NCBI RefSeq assembly: GCF_900115005.1
Contig: NZ_FOUY01000021.1
Location: 1 to 64,000 of the forward strand
Direction: 5' to 3'
Length of the DNA: 64,000 nt
Source of the DNA: Pseudonocardia ammonioxydans
GTDB lineage: Bacteria > Actinomycetota > Actinomycetes > Mycobacteriales > Pseudonocardiaceae
How positions within the stretch are numbered: position 1 is the first letter of the stretch; every line of letters starts with the position of its first letter. Below are positions 2,627 to 57,393 of this stretch, piece after piece. The notes below the pieces were generated by a model, which did no database searches, was not told where the DNA came from, and was given only the letters and a program-made list of their open reading frames with translations. The position numbers were made by a program, and so were the translations under genes.

Positions 2627-3915
2627 TCACGCCCGCACGGTGTCCGACCGGTCCGGTTCCCCGGCCGGCGCGAACGGGGCGAGCGCGGCGGCGACGCCGG
2701 CCCGCAGCTCCCGGCGCAGCGTCGCCTGCTCCTCCCGGTCGGTACGCACCTCGACGATCCGCAGGCCCGCCGGGGCCGCGCGCACCGCGTCGGCGAGCGC
2801 CCCGGGGCCGCGGACCTCGACGTACGCCGCACCCGCCGACGCCGCGATCGCCGACACCGCGACGCCGTGCGGCGTGCCGAACAGCCGCTCGACGGTGGCC
2901 GACCAGTCCGGGGTCCGGCCGAGCTCCCCGTGCTCCAGCTCGGCGAAGATCCCGCCGCCGTCGTTGGCCGGCACCACGATCGTCAGGTCCGGCACCCGCT
3001 CCCCCGGACCGGTCAGCAGCCCGTTGCGGTCGTGCAACAGCGTCAGGTCGCCGAGCAGCGCGTACACCGGCCCGTCGTGCGCCAGCGCGGCACCGACCGC
3101 CGTGGACACCACGCCGTCGATGCCGCTGGCCCCGCGGTTGGCGATCACCCGGACCGCGGGCCGGCCGGGAGCGGCCAGGTCGAGGTCGCGGATCGGCATG
3201 CTCGGCCCGGCCACGAGCAGCGAGTCCGCGGGCAGGGCCCGCATCAGGTCCCGCGCCACGCGCGGTTCGTCGAGCCGGTCGGGCCGGTCCCGCCCGTCGG
3301 GGATGCGGTCCAGCGCCGCCGACGCCGCCTCGTCGGCCTCCCGCCAGCGGCGGGTCCAGTGTTCCGCCGTCACCGGCCGGGTCGGCGGCGCCAGGGCCGC
3401 CACCACGAGGTCCGCGGTCCGTACCGGGTCCGCCACCCGCGGCCCCGGCTCCACCACGATGTGCGAGCGGGCCGCGCGCAGGTAGGCGAGCGTGCCGCGG
3501 GACAGCCCCGGCCGCCCCGACGTGACGACCAGGTCGGCCGGGTGCGCCCGGGCGAACCCGGGGTCGCCCAGCAGCGCCCGCGGCGCCCGCAGGGCACTGC
3601 GCACGTGCCGGACCCCGGACGTCGGCTCGGCCAGCAGCGGCCAGCCCGTCGCCTCGGCGAGCGCGGCCATCCCCGCCGGGTCGGGGCAGCCGTCGCCGCA
3701 CACGATCACGCCCCGCTCGACGTCGGGCGCGGGCACCGCGGCGGCCACCGAGGCCGTGATCGACCGGGTCCACGGAGCGCCACCGGCCCGGCCCTGCAGG
3801 CCGGCCGGGAGGTCCGCGGCGTCGAGGCGGTCCGCGGCGGGCAGCAGCGGGTCGCGGAAGGGGACGTTGAGGTGCACCGGCCCGGGGCCGGGACCGAGCA
3901 GCCTGCGCCACGCCT
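2627..3915 (-). pseudogene. menD: menD remnant lacking the N-terminal third
   Basis: MenD (SEPHCHC synthase) is a ThDP enzyme of menaquinone synthesis joining isochorismate and 2-oxoglutarate. The visible part starts at the mid-protein block GPVHLNVPFRDPLLP and runs through NRGASGIDG, LLGDLTLLHDRNGL and VVPANDGGGIFAELE to a normal C-terminus, so the thiamine-diphosphate-binding C-terminal domain is present. The first roughly 190 residues, which hold the catalytic glutamate that activates ThDP, are missing. The frame upstream of 3915 is unrelated proline/arginine-rich antisense sequence from the divergent ABC gene. An intact menC is present at 35-36 kb. A working menD should exist elsewhere, or the pathway differs. 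Confidence 0.8.
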
Positions 3916-18221: not shown

Positions 18222-18544
18222 GGGGATCAGTCTGCCGACACGTTCGGAGCAACGCGCCACGGGCCGGGTCCACATCGTGGGATCAGAGCGCCGAGGGGCC
18301 GCTCGCTGCCGTCCGGAGTGACCGGCGCCACTCCCGGCCGATACCGGACACCCCGTTGCAAGCCGGAAGGATCGCCGCAGGGATCACCCGATCGAGACCA
18401 CAGCGTCGGGAACCACCCCGGATCACGCCGCTGACCTGCGACGATGCCGCTTCCCATCGGGAATCGGGAACCCGTCCGGACAACTGCCCCGCCGCCCGCC
18501 CCGCTCCCCCGGCGCAGCTCCGGGGCGGGCGGGGCGCAGGACCG
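18222..18544. other. Non-coding region upstream of the leader peptide
   Basis: No gene is seen in these 323 nt. The leader promoter should lie in the first 60 nt, but no -35/-10 pair stands out. Toward the far end there is a GC-rich inverted repeat (GCCCCGC...GCGGGGC, about 18490-18540) next to the repeat array. Confidence 0.5.
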
Positions 18545-18935
18545 CCCCGCGCCAGGGCGCTGACGTGCTGATCACTGAACTCCGCACGGGCCAGGCGCGC
18601 TCCCGCCCTCGGCAGGGCAGTTGCGCGCTGATCACCGAGCCCGACACCGGCCACGCGCACGCTTCTGCCCTCGGCAGGGCACCTACGCGCTGATCACCGA
18701 GCCCGGCGCCGGCGCCGGTGAGACGCACACTGTCGCCCTCCCCAGGGCATTGGCGCGCTGATCAGCGGGCCCGGTCCAGGCGACGTGCACGCAGTCGTCC
18801 TGTGCAGGGCAACTGCGCGCTGATCGTTGAGCTCGGCGCTGGCCAGGCGCACGCTTCCGCCCTCGACAGGGCACTTGCGCGCTGATCAGCGGGCCCGGCA
18901 GCGGTGAAGCGCACGCTTCCGCCCTGGCGGGGACG
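18545..18935 (-). repeat. Array 1: six imperfect ~62-bp repeats
   Basis: The core TGATCAGCRCG (read on the minus strand) recurs with its TGATCA at 18883, 18821 (degenerate), 18759, 18691, 18629 and 18569, giving spacings of 62, 62, 68, 62 and 60. After each core come 4-5 nt, a hairpin such as GCCCTGCCGAGGGC, and a box like GAAGCGTGCGCCTGGCC. The spacing is not a multiple of three and no frame is kept open, so it is non-coding. It lies downstream of, and in sense with, the MFS gene that ends at 19174. It belongs to the same family as 28413-28971. Confidence 0.85.
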
Positions 18936-19173
18936 GAACCGTGCACATCACCCGGCCGGCGCCTCTGAGCGGCACGTTTCCGCCCCTTCTCGTGACGTCC
19001 CGCGTGGCGTCGTGGGAAACCGCCCCCGAGCGGGGCTGGGCAGTTGGGGACCGGGACCGGCGGCCGCGCGAGCCCGCAGCCCGGGCCGCCGACAGTGCAG
19101 CCCGAGCCGGCACCGCGCGGCCCGGGCCGGCGCCGCTGCGGCCCGAGCCTGCGTGCTGCGGCCCGGGCCGGGG
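18936..19173. repeat. Low-complexity GC repeats after the MFS gene
   Basis: Several degenerate copies of a GC(A/G)GCCCGGGCCGGC-like unit lie at about 19075-19175 directly after the MFS stop. They can fold into overlapping GGCCCGGGCC hairpins and probably end that transcript. No gene is seen. Confidence 0.45.
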
Positions 19174-20619
19174 TCAGGCGTCCGCGTCGGCGGCGGGCGC
19201 CGCGGCCCGGCGACCGGTGAGGAACGCGACGGCGACCACCAGCAACGACACCACAGCGGCGACGAGGAAGGCGGCGTGGATGCCGGCCTCGTCGACCCCG
19301 CCCGCGCCGGAGAAGACCGTCATCACCGTGATGAAGAGCGCCGTCCCGGCGGCACCCGCCACCTGCTGCAGGGTGGTGAGGATCGCGCTGCCGTGCGAGT
19401 ACAGGTCCCCGGGCAGCGACCCGAGGGCCTCGGTCATCAGCGGCGTGAACATCAGCGCCAGCGACGCGGACATGCCGACGTAGAGCGCCGCGACCAGCCA
19501 GATCGGCGAGGTCGCGCCCAGCGTGGTGAACCCCCACATCACCGCGGCCAGCAGCAGCGAGCCCGGCACGACCAGGGGCCGCACACCCAGCCGGTCGTAG
19601 GCACGTCCGACGACCGGGCCGAGCAGCCCCATCACCAGACCACCCGGCAGCACGACCAGGCCGGCGACGAACGCGCTGTCGCCCAGCACGTCCTGGATGT
19701 AGAGCGGCAGCAGGATGATCGCCCCGAACAGGGACATGAACCCGGTGACCACCAGCACCAGCGCCAGGGTGTAGCTGCGGACCGCGAGCGGACGCAGGTC
19801 CAGCAGTGGTGCCCCGGTGCGCTGCAACCGGATCTGCCGGTGCACGAACACCGCCAGCGCGATGACACCGACCACCAGTGGCACCCACGGCGGGACACCG
19901 GCGTGCGTCCCCGCCGCCGCGGACTCGCCGATCGCGGACAGCCCGTAGACGATCCCGGAGAACGCGACCACGGAGATCAGCACGGACGCCACGTCCAGCG
20001 GGGTCCGCGTGGTCTCGGCGGTGACCTTCAGCCAGACCGCCCCCGCGGTGAGCGCGATCAGCGCGATCGGCAGCACCAGCCAGAACATCCAGCGCCAGCC
20101 CAGCGAGGAGAGGATCACACCGGAGATCGTCGGGCCGACCGCGGGCGCGACGGCGATGACGATCGAGATCGTGCCCATCGTCTGGCCGCGCCGCGTCGCC
20201 GGGACCAGCCGCAGGATCGTCGTCATCAGCAACGGGACCATGACGGCGGTGCCGCAGGCCTGCACGATGCGCCCGGCCAGCAGTACCGGGAACGCCGGGG
20301 CGAGCGCCGAGAGCAGGGTGCCCGCGCTGAACACGCTCATCGACCCCAGGTAGACCGACCGCGGCGGGAACCGCTGCAGCAGGTACCCGGTGATCGGGAT
20401 GACCACGGCCATCGTCAGGAGGAACCCGCTGGTCAGCCACTGTGCGGTGGCGGCGGTGACACCGAGGTCGGCGATCAGCGCCGGCAGCGCCACACTCATG
20501 ATCGTCTCGTTGAGGATCATGACGAAGGCGGACCCGACCAGCAGCGAGATGATCAATGGGGCGCCCGCCGGGAGCCGGTCCGCCTCCTGGGCGGGTCCGG
20601 TCGTCGGCTCGGTCGTCAC
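19174..20619 (-). CDS. MFS drug/solute exporter, DHA2 (14-helix) type
   Basis: 481 residues with about 14 membrane helices. Family motifs: MILNETIMSVALPALIADLG in helix 1 (motif D1), LAGRIVQACGTAVMVPLL, and GTISIVIAVAPAVGPTISG in helix 5 (motif C of proton-coupled exporters). GTG 20619 has AGGAGGA 8 nt upstream. The C-terminus is Ala/Asp-rich. It is divergent from the geranylgeranyl-reductase-like gene across about 185 bp with no adjacent regulator. Proton-driven export of a hydrophobic compound is expected; the substrate is unknown. Confidence 0.88.
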   Translation of the reverse strand: MTTEPTTGPAQEADRLPAGAPLIISLLVGSAFVMILNETIMSVALPALIADLGVTAATAQWLTSGFLLTMAVVIPITGYLLQRFPPRSVYLGSMSVFSAGTLLSALAPAFPVLLAGRIVQACGTAVMVPLLMTTILRLVPATRRGQTMGTISIVIAVAPAVGPTISGVILSSLGWRWMFWLVLPIALIALTAGAVWLKVTAETTRTPLDVASVLISVVAFSGIVYGLSAIGESAAAGTHAGVPPWVPLVVGVIALAVFVHRQIRLQRTGAPLLDLRPLAVRSYTLALVLVVTGFMSLFGAIILLPLYIQDVLGDSAFVAGLVVLPGGLVMGLLGPVVGRAYDRLGVRPLVVPGSLLLAAVMWGFTTLGATSPIWLVAALYVGMSASLALMFTPLMTEALGSLPGDLYSHGSAILTTLQQVAGAAGTALFITVMTVFSGAGGVDEAGIHAAFLVAAVVSLLVVAVAFLTGRRAAAPAADADA

Positions 20620-26636: not shown

Positions 26637-27746
26637 TCAGGGCCGGGGCGCCGGCTGCTCCGGTGCCTGCTGCTCGGCCGGGGTCAGTTCGCGCGGGGCG
26701 CGCTCCGGATAGTCCTTCGGCTGCCCGGTCGCCGGGGCCCCCGGCGGCAGGCTCAGCTGCGCCGGCTCGCTCTCGGGCAGCGCCCACTGGCTCGCCCAGT
26801 CCATGTGCATCGCGGTCGGCCCACCGGCGTCACCGAAGTAGTCGAGCTGCATCGTCATGTTCATCGGCCGCGGCGGGAACTGGTCGGTCTCGGTGTTGGT
26901 GTACCACTCCTCACCGTCCACATAGGCGGTGATCTTCTCCGGCGTCCACTCCAGCGCGTAGGCCGACCACTGGGTGGAGTCGTGCTGCACGGAGCCGTAG
27001 TCCTGGTCGTTGTCCGGGCCGTAGTGCAGGAAGAAGGATGTCTCCTGCCGGTCGTCGGAGAGGATCTCCATCCAGTCGACCTCGCCGCCGACCGGGAAGT
27101 CCTCGGCGACCGGCCAGAGCAGCAGCAGGGCGTTCAGCCCGCCGGACGCCTTCTCCGACTGCACGCACGCCTCCCAGCGTCCGTACTTCTGGCCGGGATG
27201 CCAGCTCACCGCACCGGTCGTGCCGTCCTGCTCGCCGCGGATCGTCATCGCACCGTCGGCGACGCTCACCTGCTCGGGCGTGCGGGTGCCCTTCTTGTTG
27301 TGGCCGGGCTCGGGCCCGTAGGGGTGCCAGTCCGGTGGGACGGTCGTCCCGTCGAACGCGGAATGCCGGTCGGGCTCACCCCAGCCGTGCGTCGCGGCCG
27401 CGGTCCGCGTGCACGGCGACGCCGGCTGTGCCCCGGTGACGGGCGCATCGTGGGCGGCGTCCGCCGGTTCCTGCTGCGGCTCGTCCCCGGCCCCGGCGTC
27501 CGCCGGTTCCTGCTGTGGCTCGTCCCCGGCGGGCGGCGGATCCTGCTGCGGCTCGGCCCCCGGCCCGGTGGCCGGCGGATCCTGCTGCCCGGCCACGGCG
27601 GGCGCGGTCGTGACGGCTCCGGACACGCCTGCCGAGGCGAGTGCGGTGGGCGCGGTCGCGGTCGTCGCCGCCGAGACCGCCAGGGTCGTCGTGAGCGCCG
27701 CCAGCACCGCCACCGTGCTCCGCCGGGCTCTGTTCCTCGTACGCAC
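26637..27746 (-). CDS. Secreted glycoside hydrolase family 16 enzyme
   Basis: 369 residues. Signal peptide in the first about 35-40 residues (TVAVLAALTTTLAVSAATTA). Then comes a low-complexity linker of about 70 residues with repeats such as DEPQQEPADA. The catalytic domain, about residues 125-335, carries EVDWME (Glu-x-Asp-x-x-Glu at about 221-226), the GH16 nucleophile and acid/base pair, and later WSAYALEWTPEKITAYVDG. A Pro/Ala-rich tail ends the protein. GH16 enzymes cleave beta-1,3 or beta-1,4 glucans and galactans; the exact substrate is not evident. Promoter and signals lie in the 215 bp before the divergent cupin gene. Confidence 0.9.
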   Translation of the reverse strand: MRTRNRARRSTVAVLAALTTTLAVSAATTATAPTALASAGVSGAVTTAPAVAGQQDPPATGPGAEPQQDPPPAGDEPQQEPADAGAGDEPQQEPADAAHDAPVTGAQPASPCTRTAAATHGWGEPDRHSAFDGTTVPPDWHPYGPEPGHNKKGTRTPEQVSVADGAMTIRGEQDGTTGAVSWHPGQKYGRWEACVQSEKASGGLNALLLLWPVAEDFPVGGEVDWMEILSDDRQETSFFLHYGPDNDQDYGSVQHDSTQWSAYALEWTPEKITAYVDGEEWYTNTETDQFPPRPMNMTMQLDYFGDAGGPTAMHMDWASQWALPESEPAQLSLPPGAPATGQPKDYPERAPRELTPAEQQAPEQPAPRP

Positions 27747-27960: not shown

Positions 27961-28380
27961 GTGTCGCGCCCCGATCTTGCTGCCACGCTCGACCTCTCAC
28001 CGCACCCGGAGGGCGGCTGGTACCGCCGACTCTGGACGTCCCCGGTCACCGTGGAGGCCCCGTACGGGACGCGACCGTCCGCGACCGCGATCCTCTACCT
28101 GTTCGACGCGCCGGGGCGCTGGCACCGGGTCCGCTCGGCCGAGCTGTGGTTCCTGCACCGCGGCGAGGCGGAGCTGGTCCTCGGCGGCGATAGTGACGCA
28201 CCGGGCGCCGAGGACGTCCGGCGTCTCGGGCTGCCCGGTTCCGCCGGTCCCGCGGCGCTGCCGCAGCTGGAGGTGCCCGCCGGGGTCTGGCAGCGGGCCT
28301 CGCCGCTGGGGACCGAGCCCGTCCTGGTCAGCTGCGTCGTCTCCCCCGGCTTCGACTTCGCCGACTTCGAGCTGCGCTGA
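27961..28380 (+). CDS. Cupin, DUF985 family
   Basis: 139 residues from GTG 27961. DUF985 cupin marks: SPHPEGGWYRRLW at the start, SATAILYLF, WHRVRSAELWFLHRGEAEL (His and Glu cupin ligands) and the C-terminal GTEPVLVSCVVSPGFDFADF. The family is close to the ABA/epimerase-like cupins of unknown substrate. It stands alone; the repeat array begins within about 35 nt of its stop and is in sense with it. Confidence 0.85.
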   Translation: MSRPDLAATLDLSPHPEGGWYRRLWTSPVTVEAPYGTRPSATAILYLFDAPGRWHRVRSAELWFLHRGEAELVLGGDSDAPGAEDVRRLGLPGSAGPAALPQLEVPAGVWQRASPLGTEPVLVSCVVSPGFDFADFELR

Positions 28381-28412: not shown

Positions 28413-28971
28413 GGCTCGATCAGTTCGCGCTCACCCTGCGCAGGGCGAGACGGTGCGCCTCGGACACCCCGACCCCGGTGATCAGCACGCCGTCGCCCCG
28501 CATGGGGCCGAACGGTGCACCTCGAGGGGCCGGGCACCGGTGATCAGCACGCTGACGCCCCCACCAGGCAGAAGAGCGCACCTCGAACGCCTGGCCTCGG
28601 TGATCAGCACGCTGTCGCCCCTCGGATGAGCGGAGCGGTGCGCCTCGGACACCCGGGCGCTGGTGATCAGCACGCTCCCGCTCCTATCAGGGCAGAAGAG
28701 CGCACCTCGGCCCCCTGGCCTCGGTGATCAGCACGCCGTCGCCCCGCATGGGGCCGAACAGTGCACCTCGAGCGACCGAGGACCGGTGATCAGCACGCCG
28801 TCGCCCCGCATGGGGCGGGAAGGTGCACCTCGAGCGGCCGGGCCTCGGTGATCAGCACGCTGTCGCCCCGCATGGGGCCGAACAGTGCACCTCGAGCGGC
28901 CGGGGTCCGGTGATCAGCACGCTTCCGCCCCCGCGGCGCGGTGTCGGTGCGCGCCCGGGGGGGTGTCGCGG
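28413..28971 (+). repeat. Array 2: eight ~62-bp repeats plus one degenerate unit
   Basis: GTGATCAGCACGC occurs exactly eight times, starting at 28478, 28540, 28600, 28663, 28724, 28786, 28848 and 28910 (spacings 60-63). A degenerate unit precedes from about 28413. The best units read core, TGTC, hairpin GCCCCGCATGGGGC, CGAACA, GTGCACCTCGAG, and a GC spacer of about 15 nt. Frames shift between units, so it is not coding. There are no unique spacers, so it is not a CRISPR array. It fills the gap between the cupin and PHP genes. Confidence 0.9.
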
Positions 28972-28974
28972 CGG

Positions 28975-30027
28975 TCAGTGGGCCCCGAGGAGGCCGGCGG
29001 CGTCGCGGGTGTTGCGGATGCGTTCCGGCGGCACCCCGCAGAGCACGGCCCGGGCGCAGCCGTTGTCGAGCCAGTCGAGCTGACCGGGGGCGTGCGCGTC
29101 GGTGTCGATGGTGAACTCGCAGCCCGCCTCGACGGCGAGGCGCAGCAGCCGCTTCGGCGGGTCGAGCCGTTCCGGCCGCGAGTTGATCTCCACGGCGACG
29201 CCGTGCTCGGCACACGCGTCGAACACGGCCTGCGCGTCGAAGTCGGACCCGGGCCGCCGGCGCCGCCCGGTGACCATCCGGCCGGTGCAGTGCCCGAGCA
29301 CGTCGACGTGCGGGTTCGCGACGGCGGTGAGCATCCGCTCGGTCATCTCCGCGTGCGGCATCCTCAGTTTCGAGTGGACGCTGGCGACGACGAGGTCGAG
29401 CTCGGCGAGCAGCTCGGCGTCCTGGTCGAGGGCGCCGTCGTCGAGGATGTCGACCTCGATCCCGGTCAGCACGCGGAAGCCGGAGCCGGTGCCCGCGATC
29501 CGCTCGTTGAGCTCCGCGACCTGGTCGAGCTGGCGGCGCAGCCGGTCCGCGGACAGGCCGTTGGCCACGGTGAGCCGCGGCGAGTGGTCGGTCACGACGA
29601 GGTAGTCGTGCCCGAGCCCGATCGCCGTCTCCGCCATCTCGGCCAGCGGGGAACCGCCGTCGGAGGCGTCGGTGTGGCTGTGGCAGTCGCCGCGCAACGA
29701 CTCCCGCAGCCGCACGGCGGCGTCGGCGAGCGGCACCCCGTCGGCGTCGGCGCGGGCGACGGCGTCCTCGAGCCGCCGCAGGTAGACCGGCTCCTCCCCG
29801 GCCAGCGACTCACCGATGCAGCGCGCGGTCACCTCGCCGACACCCCGCAAGTCGGTGAGCGAGCCTGCCGCGTGCAGCCGCGCGAGCTCCTCGGCGTCCC
29901 GGCCCCGCAGCGCGGCGGCCGCGGTGCGGAAGGCCCGTACCCGGTAGGTCGACTCGTGCGCCCGTTCCAGCAGGAACGCGATCCGGCGCAGGTCGGCCAC
30001 CGCGTCGCGGACGTCGTCGGAGCTCAC
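28975..30027 (-). CDS. PHP-domain phosphoesterase with helix-hairpin-helix N-terminus
   Basis: 350 residues from GTG 30027. The first about 80 residues are helix-hairpin-helix-like (TDLRGVGEVTARCIGESLAG). The PHP metal sites are complete: CHSHTDASDG (about 114), VVTDHS, GIEVDI, VASVHSK, LGHCTGR, EINSRP and TDAHAP. The arrangement resembles the C-terminal half of bacterial PolX without the polymerase palm. It is expected to hydrolyse a phosphoester with a trinuclear metal site; a DNA-end role is plausible from the HhH part. It starts 11 nt after the CYTH-CHAD stop, in one operon. Confidence 0.85.
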   Translation of the reverse strand: MSSDDVRDAVADLRRIAFLLERAHESTYRVRAFRTAAAALRGRDAEELARLHAAGSLTDLRGVGEVTARCIGESLAGEEPVYLRRLEDAVARADADGVPLADAAVRLRESLRGDCHSHTDASDGGSPLAEMAETAIGLGHDYLVVTDHSPRLTVANGLSADRLRRQLDQVAELNERIAGTGSGFRVLTGIEVDILDDGALDQDAELLAELDLVVASVHSKLRMPHAEMTERMLTAVANPHVDVLGHCTGRMVTGRRRRPGSDFDAQAVFDACAEHGVAVEINSRPERLDPPKRLLRLAVEAGCEFTIDTDAHAPGQLDWLDNGCARAVLCGVPPERIRNTRDAAGLLGAH

Positions 30028-45443: not shown

Positions 45444-47546
45444 ATGCAGCTGGGGCAGGCGATACCGGACGGGCTGGCGACCATGCCACCCGGCCCCGAC
45501 CTGGCCGCCGTCCTCGCCTCGATCGACCTGACCCAGGTGTGCAACGACGACATCGACGAGGTCATGCTCGCCCACTCCCGGCAGCTGTCCCACCACCAAG
45601 CGCACATGTTCGCGGCGATCTCCGAGGTGGTGCACCGGCGCCCGTTCGCCGGTCCCTTGGAGATCCGCCGCGGTGCGCTGCCCGACCAGTACGGGTCGGA
45701 CGAGATCCGCTTCGCACTGGCCTGGAACCGCCGCGCCGCCGAGTACGAGATGGGCCTCGCCGTCACCCTGGTGTCCGATCTTCCGCAGGTGCAGGCCGCC
45801 CTGTGCCAGGGGCGGATCGACCGCACCAAGGCCCGGGTGTTCGCCCAGCACCTCGCCGACCTCCCGGAAGCCCAACGCGCCGCGATCTGCGAGGCGGTCC
45901 TGCCGCACGCACCGAAGCTCACCACCGGCCAGATCGGGGAACGGATCAAACGACTGATCCTCGAACTCGACCCCGCCTACTACGAGCGCCGCTACCGCAA
46001 AGCCATCCGCGACCGGCTGGTCGTGGCGTATCTGACCGAGACCGGCACCGCCGTCATCTCCGCCGAAGGCCTGCCCGCCGAGGAAGCCGCCGCCGCGTGG
46101 GAACGCCTCGACGCCCTGGCCAAGGCCGCCCGGCGTGACGGGCACCCGGGCACGATCGACCAGATCCGCGCCGACCTCGTCCTCGGCCTGCTCGACGGGA
46201 CACTGCACGGCCTCGACCGCGCCGGGATCCTGCGCGCGCTGATGGCACGCTTCGCCGGCCACGCCGACAACCCCACCGGTAGCGAGGTCGACAAGCCCGC
46301 AGCCGGCACCCCGGCCGCGGGCCGCCCAGCGGCCGGCGACCCGGCCTCCGGTAGCGCCGACTCCGATCCCAACTCGGACTCGGACTCGGACTCGGACTCG
46401 GACTCGGACTCGGACTCGGACTCGGACGATCCTGACACCGACGACCAGGGACCGCCTGGACCGTCCGGCCCCGCCCCCGGTCCTGGGGATCCCCGACCCA
46501 GCGGCCCGAACGGCGGCGGCACACCCGCACCCCCCGACGCCAACCCCGACCCATCTCCGACCGTGCCCTCACAACGCCGCAGCAACGACCACACCGCACC
46601 CCGCAAGAGCGCCGGTGTCGGGACCGAGGTCCGCGTCCCGCTCACGACTCTGCTCGGCCTCGACCAGCGCGCCGGCGAACTCCCCGGCTGGGGTCCGATC
46701 CCGGCCAGTGCCGCACGACGCCTCGTCGCCCGCCAGCACCGCGCCCCATGGCGCTGGGTCGTCGTCGACGACCACGGCCACCTACTCGCCGAAGGCATCA
46801 CCCGACACCGCCCGACACCCCGCGACCCCACCGGCCCACCCGGCGGAATCGTCGAACTCCACATCCCCGCCACCCAACTCACCACCCTCGCCGCGAACGC
46901 CGCCGAGCACGACGCCTGGGCGAAGGTGATCACCGACATCGCCGACCAATACCGGCAGCACACCGAACACGACGACCCCGACGCCGCACTCGACAACCAA
47001 CCGAACGCCCGGTTCCCGCACGCCGCGCTACGGCGCCACACCGAGGTCCGGGATCGCACCTGCCTCAGCCCCGGGTGTCGTACCGCAGCGCGGCGCTGCG
47101 ACCAGGACCACACTCGCGATCACCATCACGGCGGGCCGACCGTCCGCGGCGGCCTCGGGCCGCTGTGCCGGCACGACCACACGTTGAAGACCAAGGGCAA
47201 CTGGCGCCTCGACCAGCCAGAACCCGGCCACTTCATCTGGACCAGCCCGCTCAAACGCCAGTACCGGGTCGACCCCGAACCGATCCTGCCGCCACCGATC
47301 ACACCGGTGCGCCGCGACGACGACCCGGCCTTCGACGCGCCCGCCCCCGGGCCCGTCTACGCCGACGACGAACAACCCGACCTCCGCCGACACGAACGCG
47401 GCCCGCCGGCCCAGAACGACACCTCGACGGACGGCATCGAGCCGGCCGGTCCCACGCCCCGGCGGCACACCACACCGGGCGGCACCCCACCACGCACTCC
47501 CCCGGCCAACAGCAGCGTGCGCGACGATGCCCCACCGCCGTTCTGA
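45444..47546 (+). CDS. DUF222 / 13E12-type HNH endonuclease-like protein
   Basis: 700 residues. The N-terminal DUF222 domain (about 20-270) has the family's HMFAAISEVVHR and RIDRTKARVFAQHLADLPEA. A middle disordered linker holds nine Ser-Asp pairs. The C-terminal HNH nuclease domain (about 540-610) has CLSPGCRTAARRCDQDHTRD, HHGGP and CRHDHTLKTKGNWRL with zinc-type cysteines and the catalytic His. Mycobacterial 13E12 proteins are repeated genes, several under LexA; the SOS box here agrees. The role is unknown; mobility or DNA-damage response have been suggested. A Pro/Thr/Arg-rich tail follows. Confidence 0.9.
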   Translation: MQLGQAIPDGLATMPPGPDLAAVLASIDLTQVCNDDIDEVMLAHSRQLSHHQAHMFAAISEVVHRRPFAGPLEIRRGALPDQYGSDEIRFALAWNRRAAEYEMGLAVTLVSDLPQVQAALCQGRIDRTKARVFAQHLADLPEAQRAAICEAVLPHAPKLTTGQIGERIKRLILELDPAYYERRYRKAIRDRLVVAYLTETGTAVISAEGLPAEEAAAAWERLDALAKAARRDGHPGTIDQIRADLVLGLLDGTLHGLDRAGILRALMARFAGHADNPTGSEVDKPAAGTPAAGRPAAGDPASGSADSDPNSDSDSDSDSDSDSDSDSDDPDTDDQGPPGPSGPAPGPGDPRPSGPNGGGTPAPPDANPDPSPTVPSQRRSNDHTAPRKSAGVGTEVRVPLTTLLGLDQRAGELPGWGPIPASAARRLVARQHRAPWRWVVVDDHGHLLAEGITRHRPTPRDPTGPPGGIVELHIPATQLTTLAANAAEHDAWAKVITDIADQYRQHTEHDDPDAALDNQPNARFPHAALRRHTEVRDRTCLSPGCRTAARRCDQDHTRDHHHGGPTVRGGLGPLCRHDHTLKTKGNWRLDQPEPGHFIWTSPLKRQYRVDPEPILPPPITPVRRDDDPAFDAPAPGPVYADDEQPDLRRHERGPPAQNDTSTDGIEPAGPTPRRHTTPGGTPPRTPPANSSVRDDAPPPF
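46374..46427 (+). repeat. Nine tandem TCGGAC hexamers inside the HNH gene
   Basis: TCGGAC is repeated nine times without interruption, encoding nine Ser-Asp pairs in the linker between the DUF222 and HNH domains. The 6-nt unit allows length change without a frameshift. Confidence 0.95.
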
Positions 47547-57264: not shown

Positions 57265-57319
57265 GACCCGCCGGCTGACCGGGGCCGCGGCGCCCCGGTC
57301 CGTCGTCGGTCCGTCGTCT

Positions 57320-57393
57320 CCTGCTGCTCGCTGCGCTCCTCAGTCCTGCTGCTCGCTGCGCGCTCCTCAGTCCTGCTGCTCGCTGCGCTCCTT
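57320..57393. repeat. Three near-identical 25-27-bp repeats at the TerC 3' end
   Basis: CCTGCTGCTCGCTGCGCTCC or a close copy occurs at 57320, 57345 and 57372, the first two followed by TCAGT. The repeat encodes the end ERSEQQD-stop of the TerC protein, so its coding 3' end has been copied twice downstream. Confidence 0.9.

Follow-up and report, generated by a model that had tools for sequence, protein, structure and literature searches.

Clusters of extragenic palindromes of the REP/BIME type alternate in unit orientation and are bound by gyrase, IHF or Pol I, and the MIRU/VNTR loci of Mycobacterium are intergenic tandem repeats, tens of base pairs long, that are scattered over the genome. 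The extracts of the published work cited here tie REP elements to a Y1 transposase and place them mostly in proteobacteria (PMC12306157, PMC3733652, PMC2817692); they also describe a GTAG/CGTC tag at the foot of the REP stem (PMC3733652), regularly spaced REP clusters in Xanthomonas campestris, and the binding of BIME-2 by gyrase, which is the nearest precedent for a protein on the arrays described below (PMC2817692). The Pseudonocardia repeats described here resemble the REP/BIME elements of E. coli, Pseudomonas, Stenotrophomonas and Xanthomonas in being short, extragenic, palindromic and of high copy number, in lying at gene ends, and in occurring both as singletons and as clusters. They differ from them in sequence, in their 62-bp period and in being actinobacterial; their consensus lacks the GTAG/CGTC tag, and the 46 units of the five arrays aligned run in one direction instead of alternating. 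Like MIRU/VNTR loci, they form dispersed tandem intergenic repeats in an actinomycete; unlike these, their units hold a dyad, their singletons are covarying hairpins and their spacers are array-specific. Among the titles listed by searches of an open literature library, none concerned such repeats in the genus.

The window, i.e. the whole 64,000-nucleotide stretch of Pseudonocardia ammonioxydans DNA analysed, holds two arrays of this kind (Table 1). The first of these, A1, is flanked by a Cupin_5 gene and a PHP-domain gene that converge on it, their stop codons separated by a gap of 594 bp. Sequence comparison indicates that A1 is very probably one locus of a dispersed REP/BIME-like extragenic palindrome family of Pseudonocardia. 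The eight repeats of about 62 bp reported in the first-pass annotation are real: GGTGATCAGCACGC occurs exactly eight times between 28477 and 28922 at a spacing of 60-63 bp, and the unit profile picked up a degenerate ninth unit that makes the array slightly longer. Three parts had been said to recur; GGTGATCAGCACGC does so in all eight full units, but only four of these carry an intact GTGCACCTCGAG and GCCCCGCATGGGGC (by eye). The last ~14 bp before each following unit form the array-specific spacer. TRF finds a period of 62 bp (7.4 copies) and gives a higher score to a period of 124 bp, and units 2, 6, 7 and 8 are mutually identical at 52-59 of 62 positions (24-43 for the remaining pairs); together these point to recent whole-unit duplication within A1. 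The array is indeed neither coding nor a CRISPR, as had been stated, since its units are divergent repeats whose length is no multiple of three. A palindromic repeat and a regular period are shared with CRISPR, whereas the Pseudonocardia units are strongly divergent rather than near-identical and occupy about 30 genomic loci, often at gene ends. At gathering score an Rfam scan of the window matched two tRNAs only, and the array region gave two sub-threshold matches, the sole CRISPR one at 15 bits for a cut-off of 39; a known RNA family was therefore dropped as the identity of the array. A plasmid or phage origin was likewise dropped, because A1 (501 bp) had no match in a plasmid collection and the element pattern had no exact match in viral contigs.

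Table 1. Arrays of the repeat family and their neighbouring genes in the window.
Feature	Position	Strand	Description	Basis
Array A1	28415..28956	+	8 clear units of ~62 bp and a degenerate first (ninth) unit	pattern count, TRF, unit profile
A1 clear unit starts	28477, 28539, 28599, 28662, 28723, 28785, 28847, 28909	+	degenerate unit starts at 28415	
A1 unit 2 (type unit)	28477..28524	+	GATCAGCACG left arm, GCCC / GGGC inner dyad, GTGC right arm	
Cupin_5 (DUF985) gene	27961..28380	+	converges on A1; start codon picked by eye	PF06172, E 3.2e-35
PHP-domain protein gene (HHH_8 + PHP)	28975..30027	-	converges on A1	Pfam match and own gene call
Array A2	18529..18952	-	7 units of A1's family	TRF, unit profile
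A2 units	18905-18952, 18843-18890, 18781-18828, 18719-18766, 18651-18698, 18589-18636, 18529-18576	-		unit profile
MFS transporter gene	19174..20619	-	ends before A2, which lies downstream on the same strand	Pfam match and own gene call

The first-pass annotation had named units confined to this site as something that would count against it, and had proposed a covariance-model search of this and related genomes; a search of this kind shows the family to be genome-wide and present in related species, and the objection fails. Two models were used: R1, built from 46 units of five arrays with 12 pairs modelled, and R2, a hairpin model built on mostly single elements. Among the 150 R1 matches listed, the genome of the window (G000; the other G labels are relatives among the 62 genomes of the genus) holds at least 31 clusters, by our count and including one at only E 0.047, and G014 is as rich, with 65 clusters and 148 of its best 150 matches reaching E 1e-3. 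G069, G027, G079, G002, G072 and G073 rank below these two, and other genomes have at most 12 R1 matches, mostly weak; at E 0.1 some R1 match is found in all 62 genus genomes. In the 84 stretches examined more closely (664 kb, the window and 83 others chosen for holding arrays), the unit profile gave 934 matches of at least 10 bits and none in reversed sequence; a palindrome often scores on both strands, so matches outnumber units. R2 at E 1e-3 matched 52 of the 62 genus genomes, with 1 to at least 95 matches each, and reached more distant genomes as well (28 matches in G075, 19 in G009, 18 in G016). G061 has no R2 match at this threshold, though it stands near element-rich genomes in a two-protein tree whose support is too weak for placing gains and losses; this genome could help in finding a partner gene. 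Of six stretches found by a pattern scan of named genomes, five belong to Pseudonocardia and one, with a single match, to a Gemmatimonadetes MAG; R1 at E 1e-4 gave one match each in 3 of 298 genomes of the order outside the genus, with no array at any of the three stretches; and R2 at E 1e-6, in the family search, matched 6 of 297 non-genus genomes. A dependence on replication-strand polarity or regional clustering was rejected, since the G014 clusters are spread chromosome-wide, and most bins of 0.5 Mb contain clusters of either strand.

A further departure from REP/BIME concerns mobilisation. The Pfam search found the Y1 (RAYT-type) transposase domain PF01797 in 5 of the 62 genus genomes and in none of the eight element-rich ones (G000, G014, G069, G027, G002, G079, G072, G073), and RAYT/IS200 mobilisation was rejected on this ground, Y1 being the only type searched. 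For an element that resembles known bacterial repeats, the regular spacing and the lack of a mobilising enzyme of the usual type in the genomes checked are unusual.

G027, G002, G079, G072 and G073 carry the element singly, as a strong hairpin with the basic form CGA-N3-GCACG-N5-GCCC-N6-GGGC-N5'-CGTGC-N3'-TCG. Singletons fold at -31.6 kcal/mol, against -16.3 for letter-shuffled sequences, and their stems covary. In an alignment of 40 singletons (A3, without L338 and L339, which are weak and have no hairpin) the covariation score was 0.184 compared with 0.113 after shuffling, and in one of 21 elements (alignment A2, not array A2, made of 19 single elements and two units of the short G069 arrays L077 and L207) it was 0.257 compared with 0.121; in both, none of 500 shuffles scored as high and slid controls were lower. 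Two of five measures did not exceed shuffles for the 40 singletons (double-change pairs, 321/500; further pair types, 97/500), nor did double-change pairs for the 21 elements. The singletons had been retrieved with R1, which favours pairing, and the control is limited to the eight pairs that R1 left unpaired: these scored 0.330 against 0.207 shuffled (0/500), and the two inner ones alone 0.496, with slid controls close (0.407 and 0.376). Because kinship can inflate covariation scores, orthologous sites were also compared, pairwise within 13 groups and hence not independently. Of 125 N5 pairs, 51 had changed: pairing survived a change on both sides in 18 cases and on one side in 17, and was broken in 16. 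In N3, 34 of 60 pairs had changed, 20 of these being broken, and in the blocks 8 of 266 had changed. Most simply, a singleton would serve as a hairpin for the end of transcription in both directions or for the end of the mRNA. It is comparable to intrinsic or bidirectional terminators in being a strong hairpin that often lies between convergent stops, and the family differs from these in its conserved blocks, in the weak stems of its arrays and in having no T-run within ~14 bases past the stem in 24 windows inspected by eye.

The elements lie at gene ends. For the arrays we sampled 25 of the at least 31 clusters of G000 and 62 of the 65 of G014; 87 of 91 clusters were kept (minimum two units, or a single unit scoring 18 bits), the four dropped being single weak matches, and 85 of the 87 have two units or more. 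Their gaps are convergent in 37 cases, tandem in 41 and divergent in 9, and in convergent against divergent counts they differ from the non-array gaps of the same stretches (Fisher P 1e-5, gaps not length-matched). Singletons lie in 23 convergent, 15 tandem and 2 divergent gaps (40 contexts, including L338 and leaving out L365), in many cases no more than a few bases from a stop codon, and the 15 G069 loci in 7, 7 and 1, respectively; these contexts derive from our own codon-based gene caller, some calls of which overlap the element.

The history of individual sites is varied. Arrays occupy sites that carry a singleton or are empty in other species, and copy number differs between species at the same gap: one gap holds six units in G014 and a single unit in G002, G079 and G072. 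The A1 site has nine units in G000, two in G069 and a weak array in G014; it is a gap without units of 10 bp in G072, 14 in G027, 10 in G002, 37 in G061 and 99 in G079, and in more distant genomes there are five long gaps (600-1293 bp) without unit matches. At the end of a SpoU gene the hairpin is seen by eye only in G079, G002 and G027 among 30 loci. A counterpart among the 62 sampled G014 loci exists for only 3 of the 25 sampled G000 arrays, the A1 site, outside this set, being a fourth; some elements are retained at orthologous sites, in 12 groups. This varying occupancy across species implies that elements come and go and that some stay. The occurrence of singleton and array forms at the same sites in relatives allows a direct comparison of how a palindrome multiplies and what selection keeps. 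As a separate observation, L299 (G029) carries, past the stop of the SpoU gene, an unrelated, very long perfect hairpin where relatives have the family hairpin.

A spacing of exactly 62 bp separates neighbouring units in 361 of 519 cases across the 87 loci, and one of 61-63 bp does so in 458. Nearly all arrays share this period, with unrelated spacers (mismatch between different arrays 0.64-0.67, compared with ~0.70 expected from composition). In G069, 9 of 19 spacings are 62 bp and four others are 72 bp, all in one array. A 72-bp lineage is represented by L316 of G069 (positions 1968-2256, five units) and L187 of G000 (3242-3433, three units, spacings 72 and 72), and its gap holds one unit each in G027, G079 and G072. 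The longer period exceeds 62 bp by about one helical turn; that it is common to the G069 and G000 counterparts indicates that a unit, when duplicated, in part passes its period on. The off-62 spacings (51, 72, 93) hint at helical steps, a pattern that was set aside because it did not reach significance in the Rayleigh test (P 0.07-0.57, depending on the period tried).

Inside arrays, sequence blocks are kept and pairing is lost. The compensating hairpin stems of the first-pass annotation did not hold up: pairing in the 46 units of five arrays is not above shuffles, and pair by pair no covariation within arrays exceeds them (148 of 160 and 344 of 384 units of at least 12 bits, the other 12 and 40 being out of register; single-pair z -2.7 to 3.3). 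Covariation is thus absent from the array units but present in the singletons of related species. Array units fold less strongly than singletons (-21.4 kcal/mol in G000, shuffled -15.9; -20.3 in G014, shuffled -15.2), and the nine units of A1, at a mean of -15.7, barely better than their letter-shuffled versions at -14.4. The conserved blocks already noticed in A1, and the selection on them, are on firmer ground: among units of at least 12 bits, mismatch within arrays is 0.11-0.21 at GTCGATC, GCACG, GCCC and GGGC, whereas N5, loop and spacers stand at 0.40-0.55, which makes selection likely. The right arm is less well kept (CGTGC 0.22 in G014 and 0.37 in G000; CTCG 0.34 and 0.44). When weak and interpolated units are added (606 detected and 13 interpolated, with 29 irregular gaps left unfilled), the blocks, CGTGC included, stand at 0.18-0.27 and the rest at 0.43-0.53; the effect of detection bias on block conservation looks small. 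Listed G014 matches fall on one strand per cluster, bar two clusters; in 38 of the 87 loci the minor-strand score exceeds half the major one, the dyad scoring on both strands, and orientation is less sure there.

Selection on either DNA binding or RNA structure had been suggested at the outset, and for the array DNA sequence and spacing fit better than RNA. Taken together, the conservation of the blocks, the loss of pairing and the near constancy of the period argue for helically phased DNA sites that a protein would recognise, and we regard helically phased sites for a sequence-specific protein as a plausible account of the arrays, one we would put a little below an even chance. The overall scheme, a REP/BIME-like family with singletons as gene-end hairpins and arrays as phased protein sites, is in our judgement evenly poised. 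The element has multiplied in tandem in G000, G014 and G069, the arrays growing and shrinking by whole-unit duplication; they no longer preserve a perfect stem but do preserve the blocks and the near-exact period of 62 bp, about six helical turns. Under this scheme the array would act as DNA, as a row of weakly dyad-symmetric sites on the same face, on which a putative sequence-specific protein may bind side by side and mark or insulate gene ends. The position at gene ends hints at an effect through termination, a roadblock or the control of supercoiling, perhaps by analogy with BIMEs and gyrase. A point against phased sites is that whole-unit duplication alone preserves the period. More speculative, and on balance doubtful, is the extension in which the arrays are docking tracks, a putative protein on dyads six (in one lineage, seven) turns apart building boundary complexes between convergent genes, with the singleton hairpin as the older form, the array as the specialised one, and selection having moved from structure to spacing. 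The near-constant 62-bp period yields a sharp prediction of a DNA-level assembly at gene ends.

Equally doubtful, in our estimate, is that these are selfish REP-like mobile palindromes, hairpins inserted by some unnamed enzyme, with arrays that have no host function and are drifting by-products of slippage. Such an origin would explain the uneven spread of R2 matches (1 to at least 95 in 52 of 62 genomes, none in G061), the sites that differ by species (the SpoU-gene hairpin at 3 of 30 loci; gaps of 10-14 bp in G072, G027 and G002 where the window has 594 bp) and the few G000 arrays with a sampled G014 counterpart (3 of 25, the A1 site being a fourth). Drift, however, would predict neither a block mismatch near 0.2 next to one near 0.5 in N5 and spacers of the same units nor the retention of singletons at orthologous sites with compensatory changes; the Y1 transposase gene, the one type searched, was not found in the element-rich genomes. 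An ordinary functionless minisatellite of the VNTR/MIRU kind would account for the visible whole-unit turnover, as among units 2, 6, 7 and 8 of A1 (52-59/62, other pairs 24-43), but not for a motif and period that recur in three species and across many arrays whose spacers are unrelated, nor for the conserved blocks, and we consider it very improbable.

Somewhat less probable than selfish spread is the proposal that every unit is an RNA hairpin and that the array is a tandem terminator or a row of elements stabilising mRNA 3' ends, which we hold to be unlikely. It draws on the gene-end placement, on the strong folding of singletons (-31.6 against -16.3 kcal/mol) and on array units that overall fold somewhat better than shuffled ones (-21.4 against -15.9; -20.3 against -15.2). 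The array units are, however, weaker than singletons (in A1, -15.7 against -14.4) and do not covary, the 62-bp period would be unneeded, and the T-run is absent from the ~14 bases past the stem in the 24 windows viewed by eye. Given the weak folds and the lack of covariation, we rejected an RNA-structure reading for arrays and kept it for singletons.

The window also contains tandem repeats of other kinds, found in part with TRF. A different repeat of ~20 bp (period 20/41; TRF) lies at 19075-19171, between the end of the MFS gene and A2, and a 39-bp repeat of 3.6 copies lies at 27455-27588, inside a predicted minus-strand ORF adjoining the cupin gene. Further along, TRF reports a perfect run of the hexamer ACTCGG (9.3 copies) at 46372-46427 and a 27-bp repeat of 2.9 copies at 57319-57392.
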